Positions 6,149 to 61,647 of a DNA stretch of 64,000 bases are shown piece by piece. Positions within the stretch are counted from its first letter, which is position 1. Every line of letters begins with the position of its first letter. This stretch comes from a virus. Under the pieces are notes generated by a model. That model did no database searches, had not been told where the DNA came from, and was given only the letters and a program-made list of their open reading frames with translations. The position numbers were made by a program, and so were the translations under genes. The DNA lies in the IMG/VR virus record IMGVR_UViG_3300020202_000001, positions 124,001-188,000 of that record; one strand, written 5' to 3'.

Positions 6149-6167
6149 TCAAAAACCGGTTTTGAGA
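6149..6167 (+). repeat. Dispersed palindrome, copy 1
   Basis: TCAAAAACCGGTTTTGAGA, the exact consensus of a repeat seen ten times in this window. It fills the gap between the bidirectional-looking terminator and the stop codon of the leftward gene, which begins at the next base. It is the only copy not upstream of a rightward gene. Confidence 0.85.
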
Positions 6168-7340
6168 TCAGTAGCCCATCGCGATCGGTTCGAGGGCGGC
6201 CGCGCCGCGGAGCCCGTACCGGTCGCCGGCGGTCTTGTTGTGGATCGGCGGCACGCCGGCCTCGGTCAGCAGCTGCTCGAACAGGGCGGCGTCGTCGCGG
6301 GGCATCGTCTCGGCCAGCTCGGCCAGCTTCTCGACGTCGACCTCCAGCCCGGCCTGGACCTCCTTGGCGAAGTCGGCACCCATCAGGGCGGCGATGTCGT
6401 CGAGGGCGATCTTCTTGAACGCCTGGCGGTCGTACACCTTGCCGGTGCTCAGGGCACAGGCGGAGCCGATGCCCGCCGTGGCCTCCTTGTACGTGACCCG
6501 GAAGATCACGTCCTCGGGCCGCTGGATCGTGTCCGTGTACCGGCCGACGAGGTTCAGCGTGCGGTCGACGTCGTCCATCACCTCGGCCAGCTTCACGAGC
6601 TGGGCGGGCTGCAGCGCGAACCGGGGCGACTGCTGGATCGTGTTAGCGAGGGAGATGATCTGGTCCCGCTGGGCGGCGGCCTTCGTGAGGTGGGCTCGCT
6701 GGCGGATCATCGCCACGACCTCCTTCGGCTCGCAGACGCCCTGCCCGGCCTGCCGCTCGACGAACAGCTCCAGGTCGGTGCCGAGCCCGACGCCGAAGTG
6801 GGCCGCCTTCTCCAGGATCTTCCCGGCGATGACGTTCCGGTCGGCGTACGGCATCGTGTCCCGGTACTCCAGCAGCCACTCGGCGGCGGCCTTGGTCTCG
6901 GCGGCGGACTTCATGCGGCAGAACCGCTGCTTGGTTCCGTCCTCGCCGACCCAGACGTAGCCGAAGTCGGAGTCCGGCAGGCGGTCCTCCGCGTTCTTGT
7001 ACAGCTCGTCGTACCGGGCGTCGATCGCGTCGACCGCGGCCTTCAGGCCCCAGTAGTTCACCAGCCCGTCGAGCCGCTGCTTGACCTTGGCGGCGATCTT
7101 CGGGTGGTACTCCGCCGACTTCTCCTTGAAGTAAAGGGCGGAGAACCAGGTGGACGCGGCGTTGTGACACGGGTACAACTTGTTCACCGGGTCGGCGTAC
7201 GCGCTCGGCGCAACCCCTTCCGGGAAAAGGTCATCGGCCGAAGCCTGCTTGGCGAAGTCAGGGAAGGCGTAAAGCAGCGACAGGCGGTTGAGTTCCGCCC
7301 CGTTGGTGTCGCTGGCGAGATCAAGGATGGTCTCCGACAT
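6168..7340 (-). CDS. Hypothetical protein, 390 aa (leftward)
   Basis: Read leftward from an ATG at 7340 with a GAGGAGC ribosome site (MSETILDLASDTNG). The ATG shares two bases with the ATG of the divergent rightward gene at 7339. The protein is mostly helical, rich in Ala, Leu and Glu, with no membrane segment or catalytic motif that I recognise. It is one of only two leftward genes in the window, the other being the terminase, and it is isolated by terminators. Its divergent pairing with a primase-like gene may mean shared regulation. Confidence 0.72.
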   Translation of the reverse strand: MSETILDLASDTNGAELNRLSLLYAFPDFAKQASADDLFPEGVAPSAYADPVNKLYPCHNAASTWFSALYFKEKSAEYHPKIAAKVKQRLDGLVNYWGLKAAVDAIDARYDELYKNAEDRLPDSDFGYVWVGEDGTKQRFCRMKSAAETKAAAEWLLEYRDTMPYADRNVIAGKILEKAAHFGVGLGTDLELFVERQAGQGVCEPKEVVAMIRQRAHLTKAAAQRDQIISLANTIQQSPRFALQPAQLVKLAEVMDDVDRTLNLVGRYTDTIQRPEDVIFRVTYKEATAGIGSACALSTGKVYDRQAFKKIALDDIAALMGADFAKEVQAGLEVDVEKLAELAETMPRDDAALFEQLLTEAGVPPIHNKTAGDRYGLRGAAALEPIAMGY

Positions 7341-9021
7341 GAGTGCTCCTCGTACCAGTTTGAACGTCCGTGTCCCTTGGGACGGGGTCTGTGCGGCGCT
7401 GGGGGTTCCGTTCCCCGGCATGGCCCTACCGCTCCGAACGACGTGCCCGCTCTGCGGCCGGCACGCCCTCGACCTGTTCAATGATAACATCTCGGGGGGT
7501 CAGTGGCACCACTGCGCCGAGTGCCGGTCCGCCGGGGACATGATCGAGCTGGCGTCGGCGAGCTGGGGGTGCGAGCCGGGGACCGCCCTGGCGAGGCTCT
7601 CCGAGGCCGGCGTGCAGCTCCCGCCCGAGTGCGGCGACCCGGCCGAGGTGTCCGCGTACGTCGACCGCTACCCCGCCTACCGCCGCCGGATGGCCGACCT
7701 CTGGGCCGCCGCCAAGGCGAACCTCCCGCAGAGCCGCTCCTCCGACGTCGGCAAGATCCGAACCCGCCACAACCTGAAGCTCGACGTGAGCCTGCAGCGG
7801 TGGCGGGCCGGGCCGGGCCACCTCGTCGGGTCGATCGGGTGGCGGGACGTCGAGGTCGCGTTCAACCCGTCCTCGGCCACGTCCAGCAGCGGGATGAGCA
7901 GCTACCGCGTGTTCAAGGGCAAGCACTGGGGCGAGGTGCTGACCGTCCCGTTCTACGACCTACCCGACCGCATCCGGGCGTTCATGTTCCTCGGCCGCGA
8001 GGGCCGCCCGCACCTCGACCAGGTGTTCCGCCGGCTGACGCTCGGGCAAGGGCGGGCCGACTGGTCCGAGGCGGGGCTCGCCGGGATCGAGTCCGTGGCC
8101 CTCGCCGGCGACCCGGCCAGCGTGATCGCCACCGACGACTACCTCCTCAACCTCCAGGTCCAGTTCCGCAACTTCCGCAGCTCGATGCGGTCGATCCCGA
8201 TGGTCGTGTGGCGGGACGACGGGGAGTGCCGCACCCGCACCGCCTGGTCGATCCTTGGCGGCAAGCGGGTCGTGTTCTGGGCGAGGGAAATAGACCACCG
8301 CGTCGTCATGCAGGCCGTCGAGACGGACGGCCGCATCTCGACGGCCGGGCCGGCGACGCCGACCCGGGAGGCCATGCTCCACTACCTGCGGCTCCGGCCC
8401 GGCAACGACCTCGAACGCGTCGTCCTCAAGCACGCCAAGCCGTGGGCCGAGGCCCTGCGGGCGTGGATGGCCGAAGCGCCCGAGGGCAAGGTGCAGGACC
8501 TGACGCTGCGGCTGGAGCAGGCCGGGGCGGACGTGTCGTACATCTTCCGCCAGCTCGGCGGGGACTACCACACGACCCGCGTCTCCCCAATGCGGGGCGT
8601 GCAGCTGAACGACCAACAGGTCGTCGAGCAGCACGACCGCTGGTACCTCGAAGGCAGCCGCCGGCACGGCAAGGGCCGCCGGCAGGTGTCCAACGCGACG
8701 CTGCGGCTGACGCACGCGATCAAGGACCGGGAGACCGGGACGATGCACTACCGTGGGGTCATCCGGTACAAGGGTACCGAGATCCCGTTCATCGAGAAGC
8801 TGGACACGGTCCGGCGGAAGACGGCGGAGTGGATGGCGGCGAAGATGCTCGATGCCGAGGCGGGCGTGCTCGCCGTCGGCGCGATGCGTACGAACCTCCA
8901 CCAGATCGCCGTCCTGTTTCACGAGCCCGTCTTCGTCGTCGACGACCTCTACAAGTGGGTCGAGCGGCTGAAGGCCGGCGAACAAGACCCCGCTCCGGCG
9001 GGGCAGGAAGGTCAGAGATGA
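7339..9021 (+). CDS. CHC2 primase-like zinc-finger protein
   Basis: Starts at 7339 with an AAGGATGG-like ribosome site (MSAPRTSLNVRVPWDG). Residues 36-70 hold CPLCG, then WHHCAECRSAGDMIELA. This matches the layout of the zinc-binding domain of DnaG-type primases, where the second cysteine pair is followed by Gly-Asp and a hydrophobic helix. The remaining ~480 residues have no TOPRIM motif that I can see, so this may be a DNA-binding relative of primase, not a working primase. A separate TOPRIM primase gene lies at 45067. The start codon overlaps the divergent gene's start. Confidence 0.65.
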   Translation: MSAPRTSLNVRVPWDGVCAALGVPFPGMALPLRTTCPLCGRHALDLFNDNISGGQWHHCAECRSAGDMIELASASWGCEPGTALARLSEAGVQLPPECGDPAEVSAYVDRYPAYRRRMADLWAAAKANLPQSRSSDVGKIRTRHNLKLDVSLQRWRAGPGHLVGSIGWRDVEVAFNPSSATSSSGMSSYRVFKGKHWGEVLTVPFYDLPDRIRAFMFLGREGRPHLDQVFRRLTLGQGRADWSEAGLAGIESVALAGDPASVIATDDYLLNLQVQFRNFRSSMRSIPMVVWRDDGECRTRTAWSILGGKRVVFWAREIDHRVVMQAVETDGRISTAGPATPTREAMLHYLRLRPGNDLERVVLKHAKPWAEALRAWMAEAPEGKVQDLTLRLEQAGADVSYIFRQLGGDYHTTRVSPMRGVQLNDQQVVEQHDRWYLEGSRRHGKGRRQVSNATLRLTHAIKDRETGTMHYRGVIRYKGTEIPFIEKLDTVRRKTAEWMAAKMLDAEAGVLAVGAMRTNLHQIAVLFHEPVFVVDDLYKWVERLKAGEQDPAPAGQEGQR

Positions 9022-9215
9022 AGGCGACCGAGATCCTGGACAAGATCCAGGCGGAAGTGGACGCGGCCCGCGAGGACGCAACGAAGTTCGACGGCGGCAC
9101 CAACGCCGCCGGGACGCGAGTGCGGAAGCGGCTGCAGAGCATCGCGGGTTGGGGCAAGGACGGCCGCAAGCGCATCAGCGAGACCGTCGCCGAGCGGAAG
9201 GAAGCGAAGAAGTAG
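9018..9215 (+). CDS. Histone H1-like (Hc1-type) DNA-binding protein
   Basis: A 65-aa, lysine/arginine-rich protein whose ATG overlaps the end of the previous gene by 4 bp. The pattern of a short helix, then KFDGGTNAAGTRVRKRLQSI, then a basic helix resembles the bacterial histone H1-like Hc1 family, in which a helical pair around a conserved N-A-A-G-T-R-x-R-K segment precedes a basic tail. Such proteins bind DNA without sequence specificity and compact it. Here it may coat or condense phage DNA, or act with the upstream zinc-finger protein. A hairpin terminator follows at 9252. Confidence 0.6.
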   Translation: MKATEILDKIQAEVDAAREDATKFDGGTNAAGTRVRKRLQSIAGWGKDGRKRISETVAERKEAKK

Positions 9216-9251
9216 TTCGCGGCCGCGACGACATGGACATCCGCCAGGTAA

Positions 9252-13449: not shown

Positions 13450-13863
13450 GTGTTCAACCTGATCGTAGCAGCCTTGGCCGTGTGGCAGGCAATCAACATC
13501 TGGCACCACTCCTCCCTCTTCAGCTCGAAGCGGGCGTACGTGGAGTGCTGGGACGACTGGCGGAAGGACTTGCTCCGCTGCCCGTTCTGTCTCAGCCCGT
13601 GGGTGGCCGTCGCTATGGTCCTGTGGCTGGGCCTCGTCGACCACCTGATCGTCCCCAGGCTGCCGGTGCTCGGGCTCGTGCTCGACGCCCCGATCCACGC
13701 CCTGGCCGTCTCCCGCGTTGCGAACGTGCTCCACGACCTGATGAAGAAGCTCGACCAGACGCCCAAAGCGAATAAGCTAGGCGTCCCGGTCACGGGCGAC
13801 CATCAGGCCGAAGAGCCGTCCGGGGCGGAGCAAGCAGACGCAGGGCCGCAACAGGCAGAGTGA
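13450..13863 (+). CDS. DUF1360-like membrane protein
   Basis: A 137-aa protein with an N-terminal hydrophobic helix, a central RCPFCLSPWVAVAMVLWLG segment and a later helix around ALAVSRVANVLHDL. A cysteine pair followed by Pro-Trp and a membrane helix, then a small-residue helix with A-x-A-N, is typical of DUF1360-type proteins known from phages and Bacillus. The hydrophilic last ~35 residues are probably cytoplasmic. The family's function is unknown. The stop is followed at once by a copy of the dispersed palindrome. Confidence 0.55.
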   Translation: MFNLIVAALAVWQAINIWHHSSLFSSKRAYVECWDDWRKDLLRCPFCLSPWVAVAMVLWLGLVDHLIVPRLPVLGLVLDAPIHALAVSRVANVLHDLMKKLDQTPKANKLGVPVTGDHQAEEPSGAEQADAGPQQAE

Positions 13864-13864
13864 A

Positions 13865-13883
13865 TCTCAAAACCGGTTTTTGA
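13865..13883 (-). repeat. Dispersed palindrome, copy 2
   Basis: TCTCAAAACCGGTTTTTGA, the exact consensus in reverse orientation. It ends one base before the ATG at 13885, so it occupies the place where a ribosome site would normally be. Confidence 0.85.
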
Positions 13884-13884
13884 A

Positions 13885-14748
13885 ATGAGCAGTGACGCAA
13901 CGAGAGGACCCCAACAGCCCCCGCAGGCACCGCCGGAGGAGCAGGCCCGAAACCTGCCCTTCTACCAGGCGGCGCTGAACGAGTTCAGGGCGACGGCCGC
14001 CAACGTGTTCGCATCTCACCCCGAGGTGCGTTCGGCGGTCGTCGTCCTGGACTACCGGGGAGGACTGAACGACGCGAAGATCGACAAGGCCATCTGGCTC
14101 GGAGATAACGGACCGGTGAACGAGCCGGCCGCGATGTTCGGCGGGATCTACAACATGCTCGGCGTGCTTGAGGTGATGTTCACCCGGGCGGCGCAGAACG
14201 AGCAGGCCATGGTGCAGCGGGCGCAGGCCCTCGGTGCCGAGATCGTGAAGAGGGAGCAGCGCCTTGCCGAAGTCAACAAAGCCGTCGCGGCTGCCGAGGC
14301 GTCCGCCCCCGGACCTATCGGACCCACGGGTCCGACCGGAGGACCCCGAGGAGAGCCAGAGCCCGAGCGGCCCTGGCCCGACCGCATCTGGTACAACGGC
14401 GGCCGCCGCGAAGTCACCGACTCCAAAGAAGCCCACGGGTTCGGCGACGTCTACGGCCAAGACGTCGGGGAGCACCAGCTCGCCAGCCTCGGGTACGTCC
14501 GGGAAGGGAGCCCCGGGGAAATCGACGGCTGGTGGTACCGCCAGCCCCGGCTCCCCGCCAAGCCCCAGCAGCAAGAGCGGGAAGCGGACGGCCGGTTCAC
14601 CGGGGACTTCGACCCCGGAGCCCCACCCGCAAGGCACCGGCGACTCCTCGACCACGAAGTCCGGCCGCCCGCCGGCGGGGTCGACGACCTCCTCGCCGAC
14701 GTCGGCGGGGGAGACGCTCCAGGCCCTGCTGGCAAGGCTGGGGATTGA
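13885..14748 (+). CDS. Hypothetical protein with collagen-like patch
   Basis: The 287-aa product begins directly after a dispersed palindrome and has no purine-rich ribosome site. Residues ~20-135 look helical, with a coiled-coil-like part (AQNEQAMVQRAQALGAEIV). A short Gly-Pro-rich patch follows (GPIGPTGPTGGPRGEPEPE), resembling the collagen-like repeats common in phage fibre or structural proteins, then a compact domain (WYNGGRREVTDSKE). The 3' third overlaps the RNase H-fold gene in another frame; the codon bias favours this frame until about 14620. Confidence 0.6.
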   Translation: MSSDATRGPQQPPQAPPEEQARNLPFYQAALNEFRATAANVFASHPEVRSAVVVLDYRGGLNDAKIDKAIWLGDNGPVNEPAAMFGGIYNMLGVLEVMFTRAAQNEQAMVQRAQALGAEIVKREQRLAEVNKAVAAAEASAPGPIGPTGPTGGPRGEPEPERPWPDRIWYNGGRREVTDSKEAHGFGDVYGQDVGEHQLASLGYVREGSPGEIDGWWYRQPRLPAKPQQQEREADGRFTGDFDPGAPPARHRRLLDHEVRPPAGGVDDLLADVGGGDAPGPAGKAGD

Positions 14749-20669: not shown

Positions 20670-20693
20670 GTGTCCCTTTCCGGGCACCGACAT

Positions 20694-20712
20694 TCAAAAA
20701 CCGGTTTTGAGA
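20694..20712 (+). repeat. Dispersed palindrome, copy 3
   Basis: TCAAAAACCGGTTTTGAGA, exact consensus, about 25 bp downstream of the putative -10 at 20664. It runs into the AAGGAG ribosome site of the gene at 20728, so a bound protein here would block transcription or elongation into that gene. Confidence 0.85.
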
Positions 20713-20727
20713 AGGAGATCAAACAGC

Positions 20728-21477
20728 ATGGCCGAAGACCAACCCCCAGCCGAAGCGCCGAAGGTCCGCAAGGACCTCAACGCGTCGGAGTACCTCGCCA
20801 AGTCCCTGAAGGTGGCCGAGGACTTCGTCGTGAACGCCAACGGCTACATCGACCTCGTGAACTCGACGCCCCGCCCGGACAAGATCGCCGTGGGCGACTT
20901 CTTCCTCACGCTCGACGGCAGCCTGGTGCAGGTGATCCGCGAGATCCGACCGAACCCGACCCAGTGCCCGAGCTGCGGCGGGCAGCAGGCCCCCGGCGGC
21001 ATCATGGGCCTCTTCATCGGCATGACGCAGCAAGGCATGTTCGCCCGGCCGGCGTCCGAGGAGGAGGCCGGTGCCGGCGACGAGGCGGGCGACGACGAAC
21101 AGGCGTGCGAGCATAAGCCCGACGACAAGGACAACCCGCTCAAGGGCTACGTCTGCTCGATCATCAAGGGCGGGCACGGGTACAAGGACCTGTACGGGGA
21201 GAAGCCGGGCGAGAAGTACGGCGTCGACCCGACCGGGCTGGCGATCATCCCGAACGCCGACCCCGAGGACCGCGGCGTCATCGTCAGCTACCAGATCCGC
21301 CTCGTCGGGCTCACGCTCAAGAAGCGGATGCGTGCCACGTTCGTCTCGGCCGAGGCGGCCACGACCGAGCACCCGGAGGTCCGGCAGCAGCACGTCATGC
21401 CGCCGGCCGAGCAGCGCCCGGTCGAGAGCGAGTCGCTGACGACCGCCAAGGACCGGAACCCCAACCCCAATGCGTGA
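20728..21477 (+). CDS. Hypothetical protein with CPSC motif, 249 aa
   Basis: The ATG is preceded by GAAGGAGATC. After a helical N-terminus comes a beta-rich part (DKIAVGDFFLTLDGSLVQVI), CPSCGGQQ near residue 90, an acidic loop and a second cysteine/histidine group (ACEHKPDDK, VCSIIKGGHGY), suggesting a zinc-stabilised domain. The C-terminal third has RGVIVSYQIRLVGL strands. No family is recognised. Its leader holds both phage-wide DNA signals, so it is probably the first gene of a regulated unit. Confidence 0.68.
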   Translation: MAEDQPPAEAPKVRKDLNASEYLAKSLKVAEDFVVNANGYIDLVNSTPRPDKIAVGDFFLTLDGSLVQVIREIRPNPTQCPSCGGQQAPGGIMGLFIGMTQQGMFARPASEEEAGAGDEAGDDEQACEHKPDDKDNPLKGYVCSIIKGGHGYKDLYGEKPGEKYGVDPTGLAIIPNADPEDRGVIVSYQIRLVGLTLKKRMRATFVSAEAATTEHPEVRQQHVMPPAEQRPVESESLTTAKDRNPNPNA

Positions 21478-21753: not shown

Positions 21754-22509
21754 ATGTTCCGTGGACCCAAGGGCATGCTGTCCGGGATCGAGATCGCCGA
21801 CGCCGTGCGGCGCGAGCGTGAGTACCGAAGCCTGATCGCGCAGACGCTGGTCGGCCCGCACGGCGACAGCCTGGACGGCGACGGCCACCTGTCGTGGGCG
21901 CAGCGGGCCAGGCTCTGGTGGCTGCAGCGGCAGCCGCGCATCCACATCGACGACTTCGACCCGACCCCGAGCGACCAGGGCGGCCGGCTGAACCCGAACA
22001 GCTACAACCTGCGGCTCCACCCGGACATGCTGGTGTACGACCTGATCGACGGCGTGCAGCTCAAGAGCAACGGCGCGGTGCCGTACCTCGACATGCGGAA
22101 GCCGAACCCGACGAAGAAGGTCGTCATCCCGGCCGAGGGCTACCTGCTCAAGCCGGGCGTCGGGTACCTGGCCCGCACGGTCGAGAACACCAACGCGTTC
22201 AACTGCGTGCCGTGCCTGAACGGACGCAGCTCGATCGGCCGGCTGTTCATCAACGTCCACGTCACGGCCGGGTTCGGCGACGTGGGCTTCTGCGGCACCT
22301 GGACGCTGGAGATCTTCGTGCTCCACCCGGTCATGGTGTACCCCAACGTCGAGATCTGTCAGATCGCCTACGACTCGATCTCACGACGCCACCGCCCCTA
22401 CCAGTCCCGCAAGTACGCGGGGCAGCAGGATGCGACGGCGTCCCGGCTCTACATGGACTTCCAACATGCCGGTCCTGACCGTCAACACCCAGCCACCGTA
22501 CCCGCCTAA
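21754..22509 (+). CDS. dcd: dCTP deaminase/dUTPase-fold enzyme
   Basis: Residues ~78-90 contain NPNSYNLRLHP. Residues ~159-190 contain RSSIGRLF, then HVTAGFGDVGFCGTWTLEI, the signature of the trimeric dCTP deaminase/dUTPase fold. RSS binds phosphates and the Glu in TLEI aligns with the catalytic Glu of dCTP deaminase. It would convert dCTP to dUTP, feeding dTMP synthesis by the ThyX-like enzyme encoded at 61658. At 251 aa it is longer than typical Dcd (~190), with an extra ~65-residue N-terminus. The final ~14 codons overlap the next gene. Deaminase versus dUTPase cannot be settled here. Confidence 0.85.
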   Translation: MFRGPKGMLSGIEIADAVRREREYRSLIAQTLVGPHGDSLDGDGHLSWAQRARLWWLQRQPRIHIDDFDPTPSDQGGRLNPNSYNLRLHPDMLVYDLIDGVQLKSNGAVPYLDMRKPNPTKKVVIPAEGYLLKPGVGYLARTVENTNAFNCVPCLNGRSSIGRLFINVHVTAGFGDVGFCGTWTLEIFVLHPVMVYPNVEICQIAYDSISRRHRPYQSRKYAGQQDATASRLYMDFQHAGPDRQHPATVPA

Positions 22510-24868: not shown

Positions 24869-24883
24869 CCTTGGAGGGCCGGT

Positions 24884-24902
24884 TCTCAAAACCGGTTTTT
24901 GA
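24884..24902 (-). repeat. Dispersed palindrome, copy 4
   Basis: TCTCAAAACCGGTTTTTGA, exact consensus in reverse orientation. It touches the ATG at 24903 with no gap, leaving no room for a normal ribosome site. Confidence 0.85.
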
Positions 24903-25286
24903 ATGGCGAAGCGAATCCACCTGAGCAAGGCGGTAACCTCGCAGGAGTTCGCCGAGATGCTTACCGGCCTGCACGAGAACGTCACGGCGATGCTGTGCCG
25001 GCTCGTGACGGGGAAGGGCGAGTTCGTCGACGAAGCGCCCGTGCTCATCAAGCGGCTGGAACACACGCCGCTGCGGATCGGCGGCGATCTGCTGACCGCG
25101 GTCGAGCTGCACACGGAGAAGAACGAGCTGCACTTCTTCGTCGATTACGTCCACGACCCCGACGACCAAGCGATTCCGCAGGGCAACCCCGAGTATCGGG
25201 GCGAAGAGGACTGGTGGGACCTTCTGCAGCCCCTGCGGATGATCGAGATCCTGGAGTGGGCCGAGCAGGCCCCGGTGAAGGCATGA
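24903..25286 (+). CDS. Hypothetical protein, 127 aa
   Basis: The ATG directly follows a dispersed palindrome. The sequence is an alpha/beta mix (TSQEFAEMLTGLHENVTAML, then LTAVELHTEKNELHFFVDYV) typical of a small globular protein. No family is recognised. It overlaps the next gene as ATGA. Translation without a ribosome site suggests either a leaderless message starting near the palindrome or another initiation mode. Confidence 0.66.
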   Translation: MAKRIHLSKAVTSQEFAEMLTGLHENVTAMLCRLVTGKGEFVDEAPVLIKRLEHTPLRIGGDLLTAVELHTEKNELHFFVDYVHDPDDQAIPQGNPEYRGEEDWWDLLQPLRMIEILEWAEQAPVKA

Positions 25287-28750: not shown

Positions 28751-29119
28751 ATGGCAAAGAAACCCCCGCGAAGGGTCACGTTCTGGGGCCGCAAGAAGGA
28801 CCCCGACGAGGACTTCAACAAGCCGCCGCCGAGCAAGGCGGACGCGCTCAAGCAGTGTGCCCGGATCAAGAAGAAGATCCAGGACGCCCCCAAGAAGGTG
28901 TGGGACAAGGCGTTCAAGTTCTTCGAGGACATCGACCAGAAGGCCAGCGAGATCGCCGACTCGATCAAGTCGAACGGCAGCGTCAGCGAGGGGCAGAAGA
29001 AGGCCCTCGACGGCTGGGAACGCGGCGTCGACAAGTGGATCGCCAACAACAAGCCGGCCGAGCCCGCAGAGGGCGACGAGGACGGCGAGGACGACGACGA
29101 AGAAGGCGACGAAGAGTAA
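28751..29119 (+). CDS. Hypothetical protein with acidic tail, 122 aa
   Basis: Starts 12 bp after the terminator stem. Helical (ARIKKKIQDAPKKVWDKAF, FFEDIDQKASEIADSIK) with a Lys-rich N-terminus and a ~20-residue Asp/Glu tail. No family is recognised. The stop overlaps the next start (TAATG). Confidence 0.65.
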   Translation: MAKKPPRRVTFWGRKKDPDEDFNKPPPSKADALKQCARIKKKIQDAPKKVWDKAFKFFEDIDQKASEIADSIKSNGSVSEGQKKALDGWERGVDKWIANNKPAEPAEGDEDGEDDDEEGDEE

Positions 29120-29682
29120 TGCCCGAGCAAGACGGAACAACCTCTCCCCCGTACCCCAGCCAGGTCACCACCAGCCCCGGGCTGTACCGGTACCTCGAAC
29201 TCCTCCGCGCGTGGGTGGTCGAGCAGCAGCAGGAGCTGGTGCCGCTCGTGCCCCGCAAGCACCGCCACAAGATCGACGACGAGCCGGGCTCCTTCCCGCC
29301 CCTGAGCGTGTGGGAGAACGTCAGCGTCGTCGACAAGTATTGGGTGCTGATGTACATCCGCAAGATCCGCGAGGGGTGGGACTACACCCTTCGGGAACAC
29401 GAGGACAGCTGGGACTCCAAGCTGGCCCTCCGCAAGCGGTTCAGCCTCCTGTTCTCCGCCATGCACATCCTCAAGGAGGCGTTCGTCGCCCCCGAGGTCC
29501 GTGAGATGCGGAACCAGCAGGCGGCCGACCAGCACAACGCGCAGATGCAGACCCTGGAGAAGCACCTCCGGGAGGTCCTGGTGCCGCCCGAGATGCGGCA
29601 GGACGCTGCGAAGGCCGAGGGCAGCGACGAGGGCGACCTCACCGACTGGTTCACGGCCGACGACACCGAAGACGAAAGTTGA
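29119..29682 (+). CDS. Helical hypothetical protein, 187 aa
   Basis: Start shares a base with the upstream stop, indicating coupling. Mostly long helices (YLELLRAWVVEQQQELV, DKYWVLMYIRKIREGWDY, HNAQMQTLEKHLREVLV) with an acidic C-terminus. No family is recognised. Confidence 0.66.
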   Translation: MPEQDGTTSPPYPSQVTTSPGLYRYLELLRAWVVEQQQELVPLVPRKHRHKIDDEPGSFPPLSVWENVSVVDKYWVLMYIRKIREGWDYTLREHEDSWDSKLALRKRFSLLFSAMHILKEAFVAPEVREMRNQQAADQHNAQMQTLEKHLREVLVPPEMRQDAAKAEGSDEGDLTDWFTADDTEDES

Positions 29683-29687
29683 CCCCC

Positions 29688-31401: not shown

Positions 31402-31410
31402 ACTGGAGAT

Positions 31411-31429
31411 GCAAAAACCAGTTTTGAGA
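31411..31429 (+). repeat. Dispersed palindrome, copy 5 (two mismatches)
   Basis: GCAAAAACCAGTTTTGAGA, two changes from consensus, one of which breaks the central CCGG. It lies 7 bp after a TAGACT hexamer at 31399-31404 and 21 bp before the GTG start at 31451. Confidence 0.65.
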
Positions 31430-31450
31430 TCTACCGGACAAGGAGGTCCA

Positions 31451-35146: not shown

Positions 35147-35149
35147 GAC

Positions 35150-35167
35150 CTCAAAACCGGTTTTGAG
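35150..35167 (+). repeat. Dispersed palindrome, copy 6 (perfect)
   Basis: CTCAAAACCGGTTTTGAG, a perfect 18-bp palindrome, the only fully symmetric copy. It sits 140 bp upstream of the sbcD-like ATG in a 163-bp leader that also holds a GTCAAGCCCC decamer (35280-35289). Confidence 0.9.
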
Positions 35168-35309
35168 AACGGCAGCGGACCGCACCGGCGGTGCCGATCG
35201 CGACGGCGGCCGAGCCAGAGGTTGCGGAGGGCCGGTACACATGCCGCCCCGCTCGCTATGGCCACGGTTTAGAGTACCCGTCAAGCCCCGCTGCCCTTGT
35301 GAAGGAGCC

Positions 35310-37075: not shown

Positions 37076-39247
37076 ATGTGGATCAAGCGAGCGCTCTTCA
37101 GGAACATCGGCCGCCACCGCGAGCTGGACATCTACTTCCAGCGCGGGCTGGTGGGGATCTTCGGCCCGAACGGGTGGGGCAAGTCCACGATCGTCGACGG
37201 GATCTACGCCTGCCTGACGAACGACTGGAGCCGGTTCGCCGGCGTGAAACTCGACAACATCCGCGACACGGCCGACCCCGATGAGGAGTCGAGCATCACG
37301 GTCTGGGGCGAGCACGGGGACGTGCCGTTCGAGGTGTTCCGCCGCCTCCGCCGGGCCGAGAGCGAGAAGCGGAAGAAGGGCCTCCGCAAGGACAACGAGC
37401 TGATCGTCGACGGTAAGACGTTCGACAAGGACGAGGACATCAGGCGTGAGCTGACGGTACGCCTCGGCGTCAACCACAAGCTGATCGGCACGCACGTCTT
37501 CGTGGCCCAGCGGGAGATGTTCCGGTTCGTCTCCGACACCCCGGGCGACCGGGCGGCGACGTTCCAGATGCTCTGCGGGACCGAGAAGGCCAAGCAGATC
37601 GTCGACGCGATCGAGGCCCTGCTGGAGCAGGACAAGGAGCTGCTGGTCGTCGTCGACGACAACAGCGACGAGATCAACGCCCGCATCGGCGGCCGGGCGG
37701 TCGAGCTGCAGGCGGCCAAGGAGGAGCTGGCGGCCGCCACGGCGCTGCTGCTGCCCAAGAAGCGGCGGCTACTTTCAAAAACCGTTATTGAGAAGCGGCA
37801 GGCCTGGCGGCGGGCGGTCAAGGCGATCACGGCCCTGAAGCCGACGATCGTCGCGAGGAAGAAGGAGGTGTCGTCGGCGGAGCTGAAGTACACGGTGACG
37901 TCCACGGAGCTGAACGCCCTCGCCGCCGCCTTCAAGCGGGACAAGCCGCTGGCAGAGGAGGCTCGGGCCACGCTGAAGCGGATCACCGAGTACAACGAGC
38001 GACAGGAGGTGCAGGGCAACATCGAGCGGCGGCTGGCCGACGCCCGGACGAAGGTGAAGGAGCTGGGCGACCGCCCGCCCCTCCACGCGTCGGACGACAA
38101 CCGCGAGCGCCTCGTCGAGGAGCGGGGCACGCTGCGGGTGGAGTACCGGGAGAACAAGACGCTCCTGACCACGTTCGCGATCGAGGGCGTGGTGAAGTGC
38201 CCGACGTGCGGCACGAGCGTCCGGGACCTCGACGAGCACCTGCGGCTCGTGAAGGTCAAGCAGCCCAGGCTCAAGGCGCGGGGGCTGAAGCTCGCCAACT
38301 TGATCGAGGCGATCGACGCGGCCCGCGCGGCCCGGGAGGCGTACGACAAGGAGCGGCGGAAGGCGGACGCGAAGGTCTCGGAGTACGAGGCCCTGCTGAA
38401 GCACGCCAAGGTGAGCGATCCGCCGAAGGGCGACGCCAAGGCTCTGCAGCGGGTGGTCGACGACTTCGATGCGTTGGAGAAGAAGTACGACAAGGCCCGG
38501 CAGGTGAACGGCGATGCCGTCACCGCCGTGTCCACGGCCAAGGCCCGGCACGACGCCGTGGTCCAGCAGCGGGCGGACCTCCGGGTCGAGCGCGACGGCA
38601 ACGTCGTGACCGACGAGGAGCTGGAGCGTGCCAAGAAGCGGATGGCCCGCCACGAGGCGGCCAAGGTCAACGTCGCCGCCCTCAAGCAGAAGGTCGAGGG
38701 GATCGAGGCGGCCCAGGCCCAGGACGTCGAGGAGCTGGAGCGGCTCAAGGCGAAGCTGGCCAAGAACAAGAAGGCCCACCAGTTCGCGGCGAAGCTCAAG
38801 AAGATCGCCGAGGTCATGCACCGGCAGGCCCTGCCGCAGATGGTGGCCCAGTCGAACCTCCAGGACATGGAGGGCGACATCAACAAGATCCTCGACATGT
38901 TCGGCAGCCCGTTCTGGGTCGAGACGGCGGAGGACCTGACCTTCACCGTCCACTTCCCGGGCGAGCCGCCGCGCAACGCCCAGCGGCTCAGCGTCGGGCA
39001 GAAGGGCGTGCTCGCGATGGCGTTCCGCCCCGCGATCTCCGCCCTGTTCGACGCCGAGATCGGCATGATGACGCTGGACGAGCCGACCGCCGACATGGAC
39101 GAGCGGAACCGCGGGTTCATGGCCGCGGCGCTGGCCCAGTACGCGGCCCAGGTCCGGGGCCGCCGGCAGGTGATCGTCATCACCCACGCGAACGAGCTGC
39201 GGCAGTCGTTCGACCAGGTTGTGGAGCTAGGTGCACATGGCAACTGA
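37076..39247 (+). CDS. sbcC: SbcC/Rad50-like ATPase
   Basis: Residues 30-38 form the Walker A loop (GPNGWGKST). A long coiled coil (~160-370 and ~385-600) flanks the zinc hook CPTC at residues 375-378, the hallmark of Rad50/SbcC. Near the C-terminus, LSVGQKG (~638) is the signature motif and MTLDEPTADMD (~664-676) is Walker B with the catalytic Glu. It dimerises with SbcD to recognise and process DNA ends. At 723 aa it is short but complete. A degenerate copy of the dispersed palindrome lies inside it at 37775. Confidence 0.9.
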   Translation: MWIKRALFRNIGRHRELDIYFQRGLVGIFGPNGWGKSTIVDGIYACLTNDWSRFAGVKLDNIRDTADPDEESSITVWGEHGDVPFEVFRRLRRAESEKRKKGLRKDNELIVDGKTFDKDEDIRRELTVRLGVNHKLIGTHVFVAQREMFRFVSDTPGDRAATFQMLCGTEKAKQIVDAIEALLEQDKELLVVVDDNSDEINARIGGRAVELQAAKEELAAATALLLPKKRRLLSKTVIEKRQAWRRAVKAITALKPTIVARKKEVSSAELKYTVTSTELNALAAAFKRDKPLAEEARATLKRITEYNERQEVQGNIERRLADARTKVKELGDRPPLHASDDNRERLVEERGTLRVEYRENKTLLTTFAIEGVVKCPTCGTSVRDLDEHLRLVKVKQPRLKARGLKLANLIEAIDAARAAREAYDKERRKADAKVSEYEALLKHAKVSDPPKGDAKALQRVVDDFDALEKKYDKARQVNGDAVTAVSTAKARHDAVVQQRADLRVERDGNVVTDEELERAKKRMARHEAAKVNVAALKQKVEGIEAAQAQDVEELERLKAKLAKNKKAHQFAAKLKKIAEVMHRQALPQMVAQSNLQDMEGDINKILDMFGSPFWVETAEDLTFTVHFPGEPPRNAQRLSVGQKGVLAMAFRPAISALFDAEIGMMTLDEPTADMDERNRGFMAAALAQYAAQVRGRRQVIVITHANELRQSFDQVVELGAHGN
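37775..37793 (+). repeat. Dispersed palindrome, copy 7 (degenerate, inside sbcC)
   Basis: TCAAAAACCGTTATTGAGA, two mismatches to consensus, within the sbcC coding sequence. It may be chance or an old site; its codons (SKTVIE) are ordinary. Confidence 0.4.
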
Positions 39248-46510: not shown

Positions 46511-46673
46511 GGCCCGGCGACAGTGGATGCGGCACTTCCGCCGGGTCTACCTCGACCGGACGGGCCTGCACTACATCGGCCCGATCACCGAGCTGCAGAT
46601 GTTCCTCAACTGCAACTACCTGCCGGAGACGGCGGTCTACCAGCTGACCGGGGTCGGCGGGGCCTGGATCTAA
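46464..46673 (+). CDS. Small hypothetical protein, 69 aa
   Basis: Starts at an ATG within the previous gene. Basic N-terminus (AAREARRQWMRHFRRVYLD) and a hydrophobic C-terminal half (GPITELQMFLNCNYLPET). No family is recognised. Its last codons merge into the palindrome copy at 46670. Confidence 0.55.
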   Translation: MTTVTCHPLSNYAAREARRQWMRHFRRVYLDRTGLHYIGPITELQMFLNCNYLPETAVYQLTGVGGAWI

Positions 46674-46688
46674 AAACCGGTTTTGAGA
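46670..46688 (+). repeat. Dispersed palindrome, copy 8
   Basis: CTAAAAACCGGTTTTGAGA, two 5' mismatches to consensus but with an intact core. It lies 12 bp before the likely polymerase ATG at 46701 and overlaps the stop of the preceding small gene. Confidence 0.75.
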
Positions 46689-46700
46689 TCGGTGAGTCAC

Positions 46701-49700
46701 ATGCAGACAGTGAAGAAACGACGCAAGATCATCACCGACCTCGACGCCGACGCGAAGAAGGCGGAAGCGAGGGCGGCACACAAGGAGATCGGTGGCAGCG
46801 GGCTGTACCCGCTCGACGCCCCGGGCATGCCCCTGCCCGGCCCCGACTTCATGGAACACGCCCGCAACCTGGGCGACCTCTCGGACTTCAAGAAGGTGAA
46901 GGTCGAGGGGCAGGGCAAGAAGAAGACCGACACGGTGCTCGACTCGATCGGCGACAAGCTGGTCGAGCTGCACCGCAGGGCTCTCCGCGAGCCCGGGTTC
47001 ACGATGCCGATCCAGACGAAGCCGGGCATGCGCAAGAGCGTGCCGTTCGTGCCGGGTCACATCTGGGGCCAGTACATGAAGGAGTACGAGGCGGGCGACC
47101 GGATCGCGGTCGACGGCCCCCGCCCGGCCGACGTCATGGTCCTCGGCAAGATGCCGGGCAAGACGGAGGTGCAGGAAGGCCGGAACATGGTCGGCGAGTC
47201 CGGCAAGCTGCTGATCGACGTGATCCGCGAGCACCACATCAAGGGCTCGCCGAACTGGTACGTGACGAACGTGCTGAAGTTCCAGCCGCCGGACAGCAGC
47301 GGCACGATCAAGGCCCCGTGGCTCAAGGACTGCATGCCGCTGCTCCACCAGGAGCTGCGGATCGTGCGGCCGAAGTACATCCTCTGCCTCGGGGCCGACG
47401 CGTCCAAGGCCCTGCTCGGGCCGAAGTACGGCGTCGACTACATGGACGGCCGGGTGATGGAGCTGGAGTACCCGGTCCACATGGAGGCGACGGACGACCC
47501 GGACAAGGTGCTGATGCACAAGGCCCTGGTCATGACGGTCGTCCACCCGGCGGCCGTCGTCCGCGCCCCCGAGCAGCGCCGCCGGCTGGAGCGGGGCATG
47601 GCCCGCTTCGCGATGCTCCAGAACGGCATCCGGTTCGACAAGGAAGAGGTCGACATCGACCACCGGACGATCCGCACGCTGGAGCAGCTCCAGGCCCTGC
47701 TGCACGAGATCGACCACGACCCCTACAAGAAGGACGACTGGATCTCGTTCGACGCGGAGTGGAACGGCGAGCACCCGCAGAACAAGGGCAGCTACGTCCG
47801 CACGATGCAGCTGGCGTGGCGGCCGAAGCACGCGGCCGCGATCATCTGGTCCGACACGACCGGCAAGTTCGTCTTCTGCGACGAGGACGGCAAGCCGGCC
47901 AAGAAGCGGGCGATCAAGCTGCTGAACGAGTGGTTCGCGACCAAGCGGATCACGATGCACTTCGGGGTGGCCGACCTGGAGTGGATGCAGTTCATCGGCC
48001 TGACCGAGCTGGCGAAGCGGTACCGGGTCCCGCTGTACGACAAGTTCTTCGGCGAGTTCGAGAAGCCACAGCGGAAGAAGCTGCGGAAGATGGGCTTCGC
48101 CCCCGGCGACCTCGTGCCGGCCTGGGTCCGCACCCACTTCGAGGGCGGGCACGACACCGGCCTCGCCGGCCACGCGATCGAGGAGACCGCCCAGCTCGGC
48201 CTCGAAGTGCTGGCGATGCGGTACACGACGTGCCCCCGGTACGACATCCCGCTCCACAACTGGAAGGAGGCGTTCTGCAAGGAGAAGGGGTACAAGGCCA
48301 AGGACCTCGAAGGGTACGGCCCCTGCCCCGACGAGATCATCGTGCCGTACGGCTGCTACGACGCGGACGCGACCCTGCGGCTGATGTACGAGCAGCTCCC
48401 GCTGATCGACAACGACTACGAGGGCAACTGCTGCCGGGAGAGCTTCTGGGAGTCGATGCTCACCGTGGGGCCGATCCTGGAGATGCACTGCACGGGCATC
48501 CCGGTCGACCGCAAGCGGATCGACTTCCTGACGGCCGCGTTCATGAAGGCCCGGGCCGAGCAGGAGGAGAAGATCCGCAAGTGGGCGAGGTGGCCGGAGT
48601 TCAACATCCGGTCCGTCACCCAGGTGCGGGAGTTCCTGTTCGGCGAGAAGTACAACGGCAAGAAGACCCCGACCGGCGACATCGTCAGCGTCCGCCCCCG
48701 CAAGGGCGTGGACGGGGCGAAGCACACCGCCAAGAGCCTCTACCTCGAACCGATCCTCGACACGTCCAAGCCGCCCAAGGCGTGGTTCGACATCAAGGAC
48801 AAGGGGCTCGAACACGAGCACACGCCCGGGACCGGCAAGACGATCCTCGGCGTGCTCGCGCAGGAGAACCAGGAGCAGAGCGAGTACGTCCAGTGGATTC
48901 GCGACTACCGGTTCCTCGACCAGGTCCTCAAGAGCGTGCTCCGGCCGCCCGTGGTGGACAAGGACGGAGAGGTCGTGCGGGACGAGACGGCCGAGGCGGC
49001 CAGCAGCATCGACGCCTCGACCGGGCAGGAGGCCAGCCCGTACAGCTTCGGGCGGGACAACCTCGGCGGCGTGGTCTACGACGCCGGGCTCGCGGCCGTG
49101 ATCTGCGGCGACGGCCGGGTGCGGACGCACCTGTACCCGACCACCGAGACCAAGCGGTGGCGGTCGGCCCGGCCGAACCTGCAGAACATGTCGAAGCGGC
49201 GGGACCCCGACTACACCCGCCTGCTGGGCGGCACGAAGAACGAGAAGGGCAAGTGGGTCGGCGGCGACTACAAGTACAAGCTGCGGTCGCTGCTGCACGC
49301 CATCCCCGGGCACGTCCTGGTCGAGGCGGACTTCATCGGCGCGGAGCTGTACCTGATGGCGGTCATGTCGGGCGACCCGACGATGATCGAGCACGCCACG
49401 CGGAACCAGCTGCCCGAGGACGACCCGCTCTACTACGACATCCACTCCAACGTCGCCGTGCTCGCCTTCAACCTGAAGTGCGAGCCGACGAAGAAGGGGC
49501 TGGAGTCGATCGGGAAGGTGTCCCTCCGCATCGCGGCGAAGAACGTGATCTTCGGCGTCGCCTACGGGCGGCAGGCGAAGGCGATCGCGCTGCAGTGCAA
49601 GGAGGAGGGCAACCCGATCACGGTGCAGCAGGCGCAGATCATCATCGACATCGTGTTCCAGCTGTACCCGGGGCTCAAGCCGTTCTTCACCGAGGCCCAG

Positions 49701-50174
49701 CAGCGGTCGAAGGACCCCCGCTGGATCTGCTCGTGCTTCGGGGCGTTCCGCCGGTTCCCGCAGACCGACGACTTCTCGCTGCAGGGCGAGTTCGAGCGGC
49801 AGGCGATGAACTTCGGGATTCAGTCGGGCATCGCCTCGGCCATGGACCGGGCGCTGGCCTACATGGAGGACTATCGCAACAACACGATCGGGGACCCGGA
49901 CTTCTTCAAGTTCGCCCTCCAGATCCACGACGCCGTCCTGCTGCACGTCCCCTACGCCAACGTCGAGCGGGTCGTCGAGGACGTGCTGCCGTACAACCTG
50001 ACCAAGCGGGTCGAGATCTACCCGACCACGCTCGACGGGGTGCCCACCGGCGAGGGTCCGTACCACCTGGGCATCGACACCGAGATCTTCGACCACTGGG
50101 GCGAGCCGCTCACGCCGAACTTCTGCGAGGAGCACGGCATCCCCCTCAAGTACGCCAAAGGAAAGGCAGCGTGA
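46701..50174 (+). CDS. UDG-fold / 3'-5' exonuclease / family A DNA polymerase fusion
   Basis: A 1157-aa protein. Residues ~130-300 form a uracil-DNA-glycosylase-like domain (VMVLGKMPGKTEVQEGRN, then a late HPAAVVR). Residues ~345-570 form a DnaQ-like proofreading exonuclease (FDAEW, HFGVADLEW, YDADATL). The polymerase domain has motif A (VEADFIGAELYLM, ~875), motif B (RIAAKNVIFGVAYGRQ, ~940-958) and motif C (QIHDAVLLHV, ~1074). Motif C has HDA where most family A enzymes have HDE, so one acidic residue is missing. The UDG-exo-Pol order is known from SPO1-type phage polymerases. It is the replicative polymerase, co-located with helicase, primase and dTMP-supply genes. Upstream in-frame GTG and TTG codons make the exact start uncertain. 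Confidence 0.88.
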   Translation: MQTVKKRRKIITDLDADAKKAEARAAHKEIGGSGLYPLDAPGMPLPGPDFMEHARNLGDLSDFKKVKVEGQGKKKTDTVLDSIGDKLVELHRRALREPGFTMPIQTKPGMRKSVPFVPGHIWGQYMKEYEAGDRIAVDGPRPADVMVLGKMPGKTEVQEGRNMVGESGKLLIDVIREHHIKGSPNWYVTNVLKFQPPDSSGTIKAPWLKDCMPLLHQELRIVRPKYILCLGADASKALLGPKYGVDYMDGRVMELEYPVHMEATDDPDKVLMHKALVMTVVHPAAVVRAPEQRRRLERGMARFAMLQNGIRFDKEEVDIDHRTIRTLEQLQALLHEIDHDPYKKDDWISFDAEWNGEHPQNKGSYVRTMQLAWRPKHAAAIIWSDTTGKFVFCDEDGKPAKKRAIKLLNEWFATKRITMHFGVADLEWMQFIGLTELAKRYRVPLYDKFFGEFEKPQRKKLRKMGFAPGDLVPAWVRTHFEGGHDTGLAGHAIEETAQLGLEVLAMRYTTCPRYDIPLHNWKEAFCKEKGYKAKDLEGYGPCPDEIIVPYGCYDADATLRLMYEQLPLIDNDYEGNCCRESFWESMLTVGPILEMHCTGIPVDRKRIDFLTAAFMKARAEQEEKIRKWARWPEFNIRSVTQVREFLFGEKYNGKKTPTGDIVSVRPRKGVDGAKHTAKSLYLEPILDTSKPPKAWFDIKDKGLEHEHTPGTGKTILGVLAQENQEQSEYVQWIRDYRFLDQVLKSVLRPPVVDKDGEVVRDETAEAASSIDASTGQEASPYSFGRDNLGGVVYDAGLAAVICGDGRVRTHLYPTTETKRWRSARPNLQNMSKRRDPDYTRLLGGTKNEKGKWVGGDYKYKLRSLLHAIPGHVLVEADFIGAELYLMAVMSGDPTMIEHATRNQLPEDDPLYYDIHSNVAVLAFNLKCEPTKKGLESIGKVSLRIAAKNVIFGVAYGRQAKAIALQCKEEGNPITVQQAQIIIDIVFQLYPGLKPFFTEAQQRSKDPRWICSCFGAFRRFPQTDDFSLQGEFERQAMNFGIQSGIASAMDRALAYMEDYRNNTIGDPDFFKFALQIHDAVLLHVPYANVERVVEDVLPYNLTKRVEIYPTTLDGVPTGEGPYHLGIDTEIFDHWGEPLTPNFCEEHGIPLKYAKGKAA

Positions 50175-55247: not shown

Positions 55248-55895
55248 ATGAGCGACGACGCACCACGCAAGAACTGGTTCAGCGAGCGGATGAAGGGGCA
55301 GAACGCCCAAGGCCGCCTGGACCACGAGCTGTTGCAGTTCGAGGCCGAGCGGCTGAAGTGGCTGCTCCAGCGATTCGGGCTGAAGAAACGGATGCACCAG
55401 GTGATCCGCCGCTACCACGCGGACACCGGCCGTTCGGAGCTTCGGTTCGAGGCGTTCAACGAAGTGTTCCCCACCTTCCCCTTCCTGATCGGGTGCACGA
55501 AGCTCCAGGGCGTACCGATGCCCGGCCGCGTGTCCAAGAGCGGGCAGCAGAAGGTGACGCCGGTCGACTACCACATCTACCTCGACCCGGCCTCGACCGA
55601 GCCGGCGCGGTTCAAGAACTTCACGAAGGTCCCGTTCGTCGGGGCCTACAAGGACTTCTACGCCGCGTCGGCCGGTCGGGCCAACGGTCGGAAGGTGGCA
55701 CTGATCTTCCCGCGCAAGGGGTTCCTGCACGGGATGGTCATGCACAACGACTCCTCCGAGCAGTTCTGGACGGAGGGACTGTCGTGGGTGTACAAGGTGC
55801 CCGGGACGGAGAACCGCCTGTACGTCCAGCCCCTGTCGGCCCTCGTGGAGGCGATCTACGAGGGAGGCAGGGGGTGGCGTCCGCCCGGGGAGTAG
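55248..55895 (+). CDS. Hypothetical protein, 215 aa
   Basis: Starts 27 bp after the preceding stop. The body contains QFEAERLKWLLQRFGLKKRM and later DYHIYLDPASTEPARFKNFT. It is basic with many aromatic residues and could be a DNA-binding or nuclease-like protein, but no catalytic motif is recognised. The stop is directly followed by a copy of the dispersed palindrome. Confidence 0.64.
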   Translation: MSDDAPRKNWFSERMKGQNAQGRLDHELLQFEAERLKWLLQRFGLKKRMHQVIRRYHADTGRSELRFEAFNEVFPTFPFLIGCTKLQGVPMPGRVSKSGQQKVTPVDYHIYLDPASTEPARFKNFTKVPFVGAYKDFYAASAGRANGRKVALIFPRKGFLHGMVMHNDSSEQFWTEGLSWVYKVPGTENRLYVQPLSALVEAIYEGGRGWRPPGE

Positions 55896-55896
55896 A

Positions 55897-55915
55897 TCTC
55901 AAAACCGGTTTTTAG
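55897..55915 (-). repeat. Dispersed palindrome, copy 9
   Basis: TCTCAAAACCGGTTTTTAG, reverse orientation with an intact core and two changed end bases. It begins 1 bp after the stop at 55895 and sits 6 bp upstream of a promoter -35 element at 55922. Confidence 0.75.
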
Positions 55916-55921
55916 ATCCCC

Positions 55922-56008: not shown

Positions 56009-56902
56009 ATGAGCAAGAACGAATCCACGCTTCTCCCCGAAGAGCAGAAGCGCGCGGCGATCTACGAAGAGATGTCCCCGGCCCTCAAGAAGGTCGCGGA
56101 CGACTTCCGCAAGAAGGAGGCCGTCGCCTCCAAGGGCAACCTCACCCTCCGCTACGACATGGGCGTGAAGGTGAAGCAGGTGATCGAGGAGGAGGCCGAG
56201 TACGGCGCGAACGCCGTCAAGCAGCTCGCCGCCTTCCTCGGCCGCTCGGAGACGGACCTGTACGACCTGCGGAACGTCGTGACCACCTACGACAAGGACG
56301 AGATCATCGCCCTGTCGGAGCGCGAGATGGCCAACGGCGGGCACATCACGATGGGCCACGTCATGGCCATCGTCCGCGTGAAGAAGCAGGCCGACCGGAA
56401 GAAGCTGTGGGACCGCGTGTTCGCCGAGTCCCTCACCGTGGGCCAGCTCGCCGGCGAGGTGTCGGCCGGGTACGAGAAGGCCAACAAGCGCTCGGGCGGC
56501 CGCAAGCCGTCCAAGCCGACGAGCCCCGTGGCGGGCATCGCCCAGATCGCGGAGCGGACGCAGGAGCTGAACAACCGCTTCGAGGGCTGGGACGAGACCG
56601 TGTTCACGGCCATCGCCGACCTCCCCCCGGACAAGATCGACAAGATCGTCCTGGAGAAGGCCGAGAAGGCCAGCGCGGAGCTGCACAAGCTGGAGGAGAA
56701 CCTCACCCAGTACGTCGGCAAGTACGACAAGGGCGTCGAGCACATCCGCAAGGTCGTGGCGGCGAAGGCGAAGGAAGAGGCCGACGCCAAGGCCGAGCAC
56801 AAGAAGGAAGAGAAGCAGCTCGAAGGCAAGGGCGCGAAGAAGGCAGTCGGCAAGAAGGCCGACGCGAAGGCCGGCAAGAGCCGCCGGCCCGCTGCCGCCT
56901 AA
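56009..56902 (+). CDS. ParB-like helix-turn-helix DNA-binding protein
   Basis: A 297-aa protein. Residues ~70-95 (GANAVKQLAAFLGRSETDLY) read as a helix-turn-helix. Residues ~110-150 (GHITMGHVMAIVRVKKQADR, then WDRVFAESLTVGQLAG) match the helix pattern that follows the HTH in ParB/KorB proteins (I-x-x-G-H-A/V-x-A-I, then L-S/T-V-x-x-L). The N-terminal nuclease-like domain of true ParB is not seen. The C-terminus is Lys/Ala/Glu-rich. It may bind a palindromic site; the dispersed palindrome and the C5/G5 repeats both lie just upstream of its own start, so autoregulation is possible. Identity is moderate. Confidence 0.55.
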   Translation: MSKNESTLLPEEQKRAAIYEEMSPALKKVADDFRKKEAVASKGNLTLRYDMGVKVKQVIEEEAEYGANAVKQLAAFLGRSETDLYDLRNVVTTYDKDEIIALSEREMANGGHITMGHVMAIVRVKKQADRKKLWDRVFAESLTVGQLAGEVSAGYEKANKRSGGRKPSKPTSPVAGIAQIAERTQELNNRFEGWDETVFTAIADLPPDKIDKIVLEKAEKASAELHKLEENLTQYVGKYDKGVEHIRKVVAAKAKEEADAKAEHKKEEKQLEGKGAKKAVGKKADAKAGKSRRPAAA

Positions 56903-58956: not shown

Positions 58957-58958
58957 CC

Positions 58959-60399: not shown

Positions 60400-60401
60400 C
60401 G

Positions 60402-61248: not shown

Positions 61249-61427
61249 CCTGTCCGTTCTGCCACCGCGACGTGCCGAAGGAGCAGCTGAAGTCGGGGCG
61301 GTGTCCGCACTGCGGCACGTCCGTCCCGACCGTGCACCTCCAGCGGCGGTGGCAGCCCGTGCCGATGATCGACCACAGCCAACGACGCGGCCGCGAGGGC
61401 CGCCTCAAGCGACGAAGGGACGACTGA
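61245..61427 (+). CDS. Small zinc-ribbon protein, 60 aa
   Basis: Start overlaps the previous stop (ATGA). MTCPFCHRDVPKEQ and RCPHCGTSV give two CxxC pairs about 17 residues apart, a zinc-ribbon module, followed by an Arg-rich C-terminus (RRGREGRLKRRRDD). Probably binds nucleic acid; no specific role. Confidence 0.6.
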   Translation: MTCPFCHRDVPKEQLKSGRCPHCGTSVPTVHLQRRWQPVPMIDHSQRRGREGRLKRRRDD

Positions 61428-61428
61428 C

Positions 61429-61620
61429 GTGACGGAGCACCCCCAGCAAGGCCAGGACCGACTGGACGACATCCTGAACCACCTGGCCGAGCTGGGGGTG
61501 CCGCACGCGGCCATCCGCGTCACCCGCGACCCCGCGGGCGACCGCGTCGCCGTCGCCCCGCCCTACGACACGTCCGAGGTGAGGGTGTACCTCGCCTCCG
61601 CCTCGCAGCGGCCCAACTGA
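61429..61620 (+). CDS. Small hypothetical protein, 63 aa
   Basis: GTG start 1 bp after the zinc-ribbon stop. Short alpha/beta sequence (RLDDILNHLAELGVPHAAIR, then EVRVYLASASQ). No family is recognised. It is the last gene before palindrome copy 10 and thyX. Confidence 0.55.
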   Translation: MTEHPQQGQDRLDDILNHLAELGVPHAAIRVTRDPAGDRVAVAPPYDTSEVRVYLASASQRPN

Positions 61621-61628
61621 GGGCCGAT

Positions 61629-61647
61629 CCAAAAACCGGTTTTGAGA
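61629..61647 (+). repeat. Dispersed palindrome, copy 10
   Basis: CCAAAAACCGGTTTTGAGA, one mismatch at the 5' end with an intact core. It overlaps the AGAAGGAG ribosome site of the thyX-like gene, whose ATG is at 61658, so binding here could block thyX expression. Confidence 0.8.

Follow-up and report, generated by a model that had tools for sequence, protein, structure and literature searches.

Near-evenly spaced palindromes and a ParB/Noc-fold candidate binding protein in a large phage genome and its relatives

A 24-bp pseudo-palindrome, GATCYMAAAACCGGTTTTKRGATC, recurs in 37 copies across a phage genome at a spacing more even than any random placement reproduced, and related phages carry dispersed palindromes of their own whose sequences differ from lineage to lineage. 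These sites may serve as loading or anchoring points for a genome-organising phage protein of ParB/Noc fold that also controls itself through the site upstream of its gene, a reading that in our judgement has about an even chance of being right.

The window, a 64,000-nucleotide stretch, corresponds to bases 124,001-188,000 of a 224,418-bp IMG/VR virus record, called G000. All ten copies listed in an earlier sequence-only reading were present in it, with the core AAAACCGGTTTT exact at eight positions (6152, 13869, 20697, 24888, 35153, 46673, 55901, and 61632), with one mismatch at 31414, and with two mismatches at 37778. With up to two mismatches allowed, 11 matches were observed against 0.26 expected from the shuffled window, and none of 100 shuffles reached 11; the eleventh match (31737, AGAACCGGTTCT; record position 155737, two mismatches) is without flanks and is probably due to chance. 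New gene calls agreed with the placement of nine copies at gene boundaries and one (37778) within an sbcC-like gene, and the description of copies as preceding rightward genes failed at 6152, which is located between two convergent genes. The sites and the proposed binding protein are as follows.

6146 to 6169, plus strand: site, core exact, between convergent genes; G002 has a site at the same boundary (16207)
13863 to 13886, minus strand: site, core exact, with a stop codon 5 bp before it
20691 to 20714, plus strand: site, core exact; gene 20728-21477 starts 19 bp on
24882 to 24905, minus strand: site, core exact, 3 bp before gene 24903-25286
31408 to 31431, plus strand: site, core with 1 mismatch (CCAG), intergenic, after gene 30892-31401
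35147 to 35170, no strand assigned: site, core exact, flanks symmetric, 6 bp past a stop codon; a metallophosphatase-like gene is next
37772 to 37795, plus strand: site, core with 2 mismatches (CCGTTATT), within the sbcC-like gene 37076-39247
46667 to 46690, plus strand: site, core exact; a UDG-DNA polymerase A fusion gene lies 16 bp on
55895 to 55918, minus strand: site, core exact, upstream of the ParB/Noc-fold gene; position kept in G002, G004, and G012
61626 to 61649, plus strand: site, core exact; thyX lies 14 bp on
56009 to 56902, plus strand: protein of 297 aa with a ParB/Noc-type DNA-binding domain (Pfam, AlphaFold2, Foldseek), the proposed binder

Over the whole record, AAAACCGGTTTT occurred 35 times with at most one mismatch and its reversed control did not occur, so that the genome-wide count proposed earlier as a test came out in favor of the motif. 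Two copies with good flanks (161778, which is window position 37778, and 192914) were added to give a 37-site set, from which the two-mismatch match at 155737 was excluded. Column counts over these 37 copies indicated about 24 conserved bases with GATC at the outer ends, and the length of 18-19 bp first assigned to the element was therefore too short; beyond the 24-bp palindrome there were no conserved columns and no fixed promoter element adjoining it. The half-sites were unequal, one tending to TCCAAAAACC and the other to TCTCAAAACC, and the asymmetric combinations (A..G, 18; C..T, 10) outnumbered the symmetric ones (A..T, 6; C..G, 2), which gives each copy a weak orientation. This orientation was divided 18:10 in G000 although nearly all genes are rightward, and it does not follow gene direction. 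Intergenic DNA makes up about 10% of the genome (about 90% being coding) and holds 28 of the 37 sites. An RNA hairpin was considered and rejected, since a loopless perfect palindrome would form a stable stem only if its center opened and Rfam had no match in the window. No related DNA was detected in isolated phages by megablast or blastn.

The spacing of the 37 sites had a mean of 6.1-6.4 kb, a range of 2.3-10.4 kb, and a CV of 0.335, or 0.37 (from the mean and s.d.) when 161778 and 192914 were omitted. Random placement matched for the numbers of intergenic and coding sites gave a CV of 1.08 (0 of 20,000 placements as even as G000; P<=5e-5), and random choice among intergenic gaps gave about 0.94-0.95, again with 0 of 20,000 as even. 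When the intergenic sites were fixed and the coding positions randomized, a CV of 0.60 was expected against the 0.335 observed (0 of 20,000), which indicates that the in-gene copies sit in the gaps left by the intergenic ones. The evenness, the absence of orientation relative to genes, this gap filling, and the site in a convergent gap together fit genome organization better than a promoter or operator function.

Relatives were sought using terminase homologues (45-63% identical), which yielded 35 further loci, and fourteen of these were read over all or nearly all of their length. Ten of the terminase-found relatives bear dispersed palindromes of their own, so that the lack of conservation in close relatives, which the sequence-only reading had named as a ground for refutation, was not borne out.

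G002: CAAAACCGTTTTTG, 19 sites, orientation 8:8
G004: CTCAAAASCGSTTTTGAG, 8 sites
G014 and G010: TTACGCNGCGTAA, 14 and 13 sites
G012: AAAAAGTACTTTTT, 16 curated sites (unfiltered, 19 sites with a CV of 0.62)
G016: TTACGCNGCGTAA, 13 sites
G017: TTGATCNNNNGATCAA, 26 sites
G001: TTCATCNNNNGATGAA, 7 sites
G024: ACTTAATTTTTAAGT, 23 sites
G011: TAAATTCCGGAATTTA, 13 sites, CV 0.44

G020 bears a motif related to that of G017. Relative to uniform placement, sites were significantly even in eight of 11 genomes (G000, G002, G004, G010, G011, G012, G014, and G016), with P values of 5e-5 to 0.028, or 6.5e-4 to 0.028 without G000, that are approximate because motif thresholds were set genome by genome; the evenness of the sites in G001, G017, and G024 was not significant (P 0.13-0.14). 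No clear dispersed site set was found in G003, G015, and G025, which are lower in G+C, and a repeat in G012, AGCAGGTATTACGA, was rejected as a dispersed palindrome. A search of viral contigs with the pattern TCYMAAAACCGGTTTTKRGA found none, owing to the divergence of the relatives' motifs. The genome of G002 is colinear with G000 over 130-209 kb, and some boundaries keep a site in both (G000/G002 coordinates), namely 130152/16207, between convergent genes, 179901/57879, and 204835/78661; most sites have moved, so that spacing is better conserved than position. In the nearest isolate, Salmonella phage Arash, neither a ParB/Noc-fold gene nor a comparable dispersed palindrome was found.

The protein encoded at 56009-56902 matched two Pfam families weakly, HTH_ParB (E 4e-4, just short of the cut-off) and DUF1016_N. 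An AlphaFold2 model built from ten homologues (mean pLDDT 80) predicted a helical HTH domain (about residues 10-158) followed by a coiled coil (173-271) and a disordered Lys/Ala-rich tail; the model was helical except for isolated strand residues at about 105-113 and had no N-terminal alpha/beta domain. The 28 best-ranked Foldseek matches against the PDB were all to ParB, Noc, Spo0J, or SopB DNA-binding domains, mostly with a probability near 1.0 and with weak E-values (best 8e-3), and comparison with the BFVD viral structures returned weak matches to uncharacterized proteins only. The ParB CTPase domain (PF02195) had no match in G000, G012, G014, G017, and G024. Likewise, searches of five large genomes with PF13614 for a ParA-type ATPase and with PF00589 for a tyrosine integrase or recombinase gave no match. 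Homologues, of which a single-protein search found none, were obtained by way of the terminase relatives and a profile, and every genome read contained them, apart from the partial contigs G010 and G020. Several have Lys-rich tails, with an AT-hook-like KRGRPRG in G003; upstream of the G003 homologue lies TAAATTCTGGAATTTA.

Comparative evidence supports this protein well as the candidate binder, a role for which the sequence-only reading had put it forward. Among genes with orthologues, the ParB/Noc-fold gene was the only one with an upstream site in G000, G002, G004, and G012. Over the ten genomes with a known motif, 6 of 11 homologues had an upstream site, and the corresponding P value of 3.6e-5 versus other genes is somewhat optimistic because the G011 motif was counted although it had been discovered through this gene. 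When the 260 bp ahead of each homologue were scanned blind to the motif, the dispersed motif was retrieved in G000, G002, G012, and G024, and in G011 the scan singled out TAAATTCCGGAATTTA, which was afterwards shown to be dispersed and even; in G004 the motif was present without being the top-scoring word, and no recognized site was obtained in G014, G016, G017, G001, G025, and G015. Homologue clades coincide with motif classes, weak support in that terminase clades are nearly the same and the match is confounded with phage phylogeny. The one partial exception is G004, whose terminase is nearest those of G011 and G003 and whose motif and homologue group with those of G000 and G012.

On the genome-organizing reading, the 56009-56902 protein would bind the palindromes specifically as a dimer, with one DNA-binding domain per half-site, and the site just upstream would control its own gene. 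Sites every 5-15 kb would give it evenly placed points for loading or anchoring, and the intervening DNA could be bridged or coated by the coiled coil and lysine-rich tail, so that the genome, once injected or during replication, would take on a regular higher-order organization loosely like that of Noc with its scattered sites. The sites, their evenness, their lack of orientation, and their lineage-specific sequences are observed, as are the predicted fold of the protein and the position of its gene; we infer both that the protein binds these sites and bridges or coats DNA and that its purpose is genome organization rather than gene control. The CTPase domain is what lets ParB and Noc spread, and its absence makes the coating mechanism speculative. 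Many sites abut gene starts, as expected of gene-control sites, an observation that counts against the organizing reading, as do the homologues with no recognized upstream site, the uneven sites of G001, G017, and G024, the weak Foldseek E-values, and the lack of both gene and motif in Arash.

The strongest rival is silencing by regular road-blocks, in which the ParB/Noc-fold protein or another repressor would block stray transcription, perhaps keeping a dormant or plasmid-like state, and even spacing would make the road-blocks efficient. The mostly intergenic sites, the site upstream of a putative regulator gene, the variation of the palindromes by lineage, as stoperator sequences vary by immunity group (PMC3029335), and the precedent of KorB, a ParB-family long-range silencer working from distal operators (PMC11790492), are all consistent with it. 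We nevertheless consider it unlikely. Bxb1 stoperators, run in the same way as a control, were uneven (32 sites, CV 0.91, P 0.42) and strictly oriented, whereas the G000 sites are even and unoriented; moreover, the lack of a tyrosine integrase in the five large genomes and of any related terminase in the bacterial genomes searched for prophages means that these searches gave no sign of lysogeny.

Rather more doubtful is a transcription element, either a promoter part or an activator site, used by a phage multi-subunit or host RNA polymerase and spaced by operon length. In its favor are a phage gene for an RNA polymerase subunit (Rpb1 domain 5, 1.6e-15), the many sites 3-40 bp ahead of start codons, and a search of the record that gave no second strong intergenic motif. 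Against it, the site is symmetric and unoriented, about 13 copies overlap or abut the ribosome-binding site and so leave no room for a leader, one conserved copy lies between convergent genes and others within genes, and phages with unrelated palindromes have polymerase subunits that are 52-61% identical. A promoter as the leading explanation was rejected on account of the symmetry, the lack of orientation, and the ribosome-site overlap. Binding by some other protein of phage or host that lacks annotation, with the ParB/Noc-fold gene merely having a conserved upstream site, appears improbable: most phage proteins are unannotated and the proteome was scanned in part, but among site-bearing genes only the ParB-like one keeps its site in four of four genomes, and the lineage-specific site sequences argue against a host protein.

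Extended to the relatives, the organizing reading is that a widespread giant-phage lineage maintains a chromatin-like order through a CTPase-less ParB/Noc-fold protein, with its coiled coil and histone-H1-like tail, on near-even palindromes whose spacing is under selection, the protein and its site diverging together; this we put forward tentatively, at somewhat less than even chances. Where selection keeps a protein-binding site evenly spaced, this is the mark of genome architecture and not of gene control, and no description of such selection in a phage was found in the literature searched. If true, nature would have supplied about five unrelated classes of site whose candidate binders are homologous, and the system would inform both the question of how the genomes of large phages stay ordered during infection and that of how specificity changes in ParB/Noc-type domains.

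Among known systems, the likeness to dispersed operators or stoperators that was first proposed is supported for dispersed protein-binding sites in general and fails for the mycobacteriophage stoperator with its one-way orientation and asymmetric site. The stoperators of L5 and Bxb1 are likewise present in tens of mainly intergenic copies across the phage genome with lineage-specific sequences (PMC3029335), but they are 13-bp, asymmetric, oriented, and uneven, in contrast to an unoriented, even 24-bp pseudo-palindrome, and belong to temperate phages with an integrase. The SPBRE repeat of Bacillus phage SPbeta is also dispersed and intergenic, with one phage protein, MrpR, as binder (PMC10516654), but SPBRE is located in promoter regions, and MrpR has a tyrosine-recombinase fold, in contrast to the ParB/Noc fold of the candidate, and PF00589 gave no match here. 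KorB of plasmid RK2 shares a ParB-family DNA-binding domain, several operators, and control of distant genes (PMC11790492), but is a CTP-dependent sliding clamp, and the CTPase domain was not found in the candidate. A centromere-like partition site, the other early suggestion, was not supported, as the sites are spread evenly and do not cluster, and searches for a ParA-type ATPase (PF13614) and for the ParB CTPase domain yielded neither. Palindromic and scattered, unlike clustered parS, the sites are similar in arrangement to the NBS of Noc in Bacillus subtilis, of which there are about 70 (PMC4331003), with the sequence TATTTCCC-GGGAAATA (PMC7383237). The likeness lies in the fold of the DNA-binding domain and in short palindromes scattered unclustered over the genome; the phage protein differs in having a coiled coil and Lys-rich tail instead of the N-terminal CTPase domain, and its sites differ in being phage-borne, evenly spaced, and changing in sequence between related phages.

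Two homologues of the ParB/Noc-fold protein, the proposed palindrome binder, are encoded in the related genome G001 (L014:3910-4731 and L016:2443-3552), one of which adjoins the terminase gene. The nearest match of the second is the homologue from G017, a relative with the same palindrome layout as G001. Among other repeats, TCTCATCTTCTAAACCGATGAGCAGGTATTAAGATCCTCGGTATT is a longer sequence common to positions 124142 and 136030 of G012, and CCGTAGCC/GCTACGGC repeats were strongly over-represented in G025 (L068-L076), where CCGTAGCCGT was present in 44 copies versus 0.5 expected.

The following genes were annotated in the virus record (G000).

Window 21754-22509: dCTP deaminase-like protein
Window 46701-50174: uracil-DNA-glycosylase-like domain and family A DNA polymerase, fused in a single protein
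Window 61658-62731: ThyX
Record 28817-31573 (L002:8917-11673): subunit of a multi-subunit RNA polymerase, matching Rpb1 domain 5 with E 1.6e-15

The nucleotide metabolism genes (dCTP deaminase-like and ThyX) may hint at unusual DNA bases. Relatives of the RNA polymerase subunit were found at 52-61% in G010, G012, G014, G017, and G024, and at approximately 26% in Salmonella phage Arash, the nearest isolate, and Vibrio phages D69, D148, and D181.
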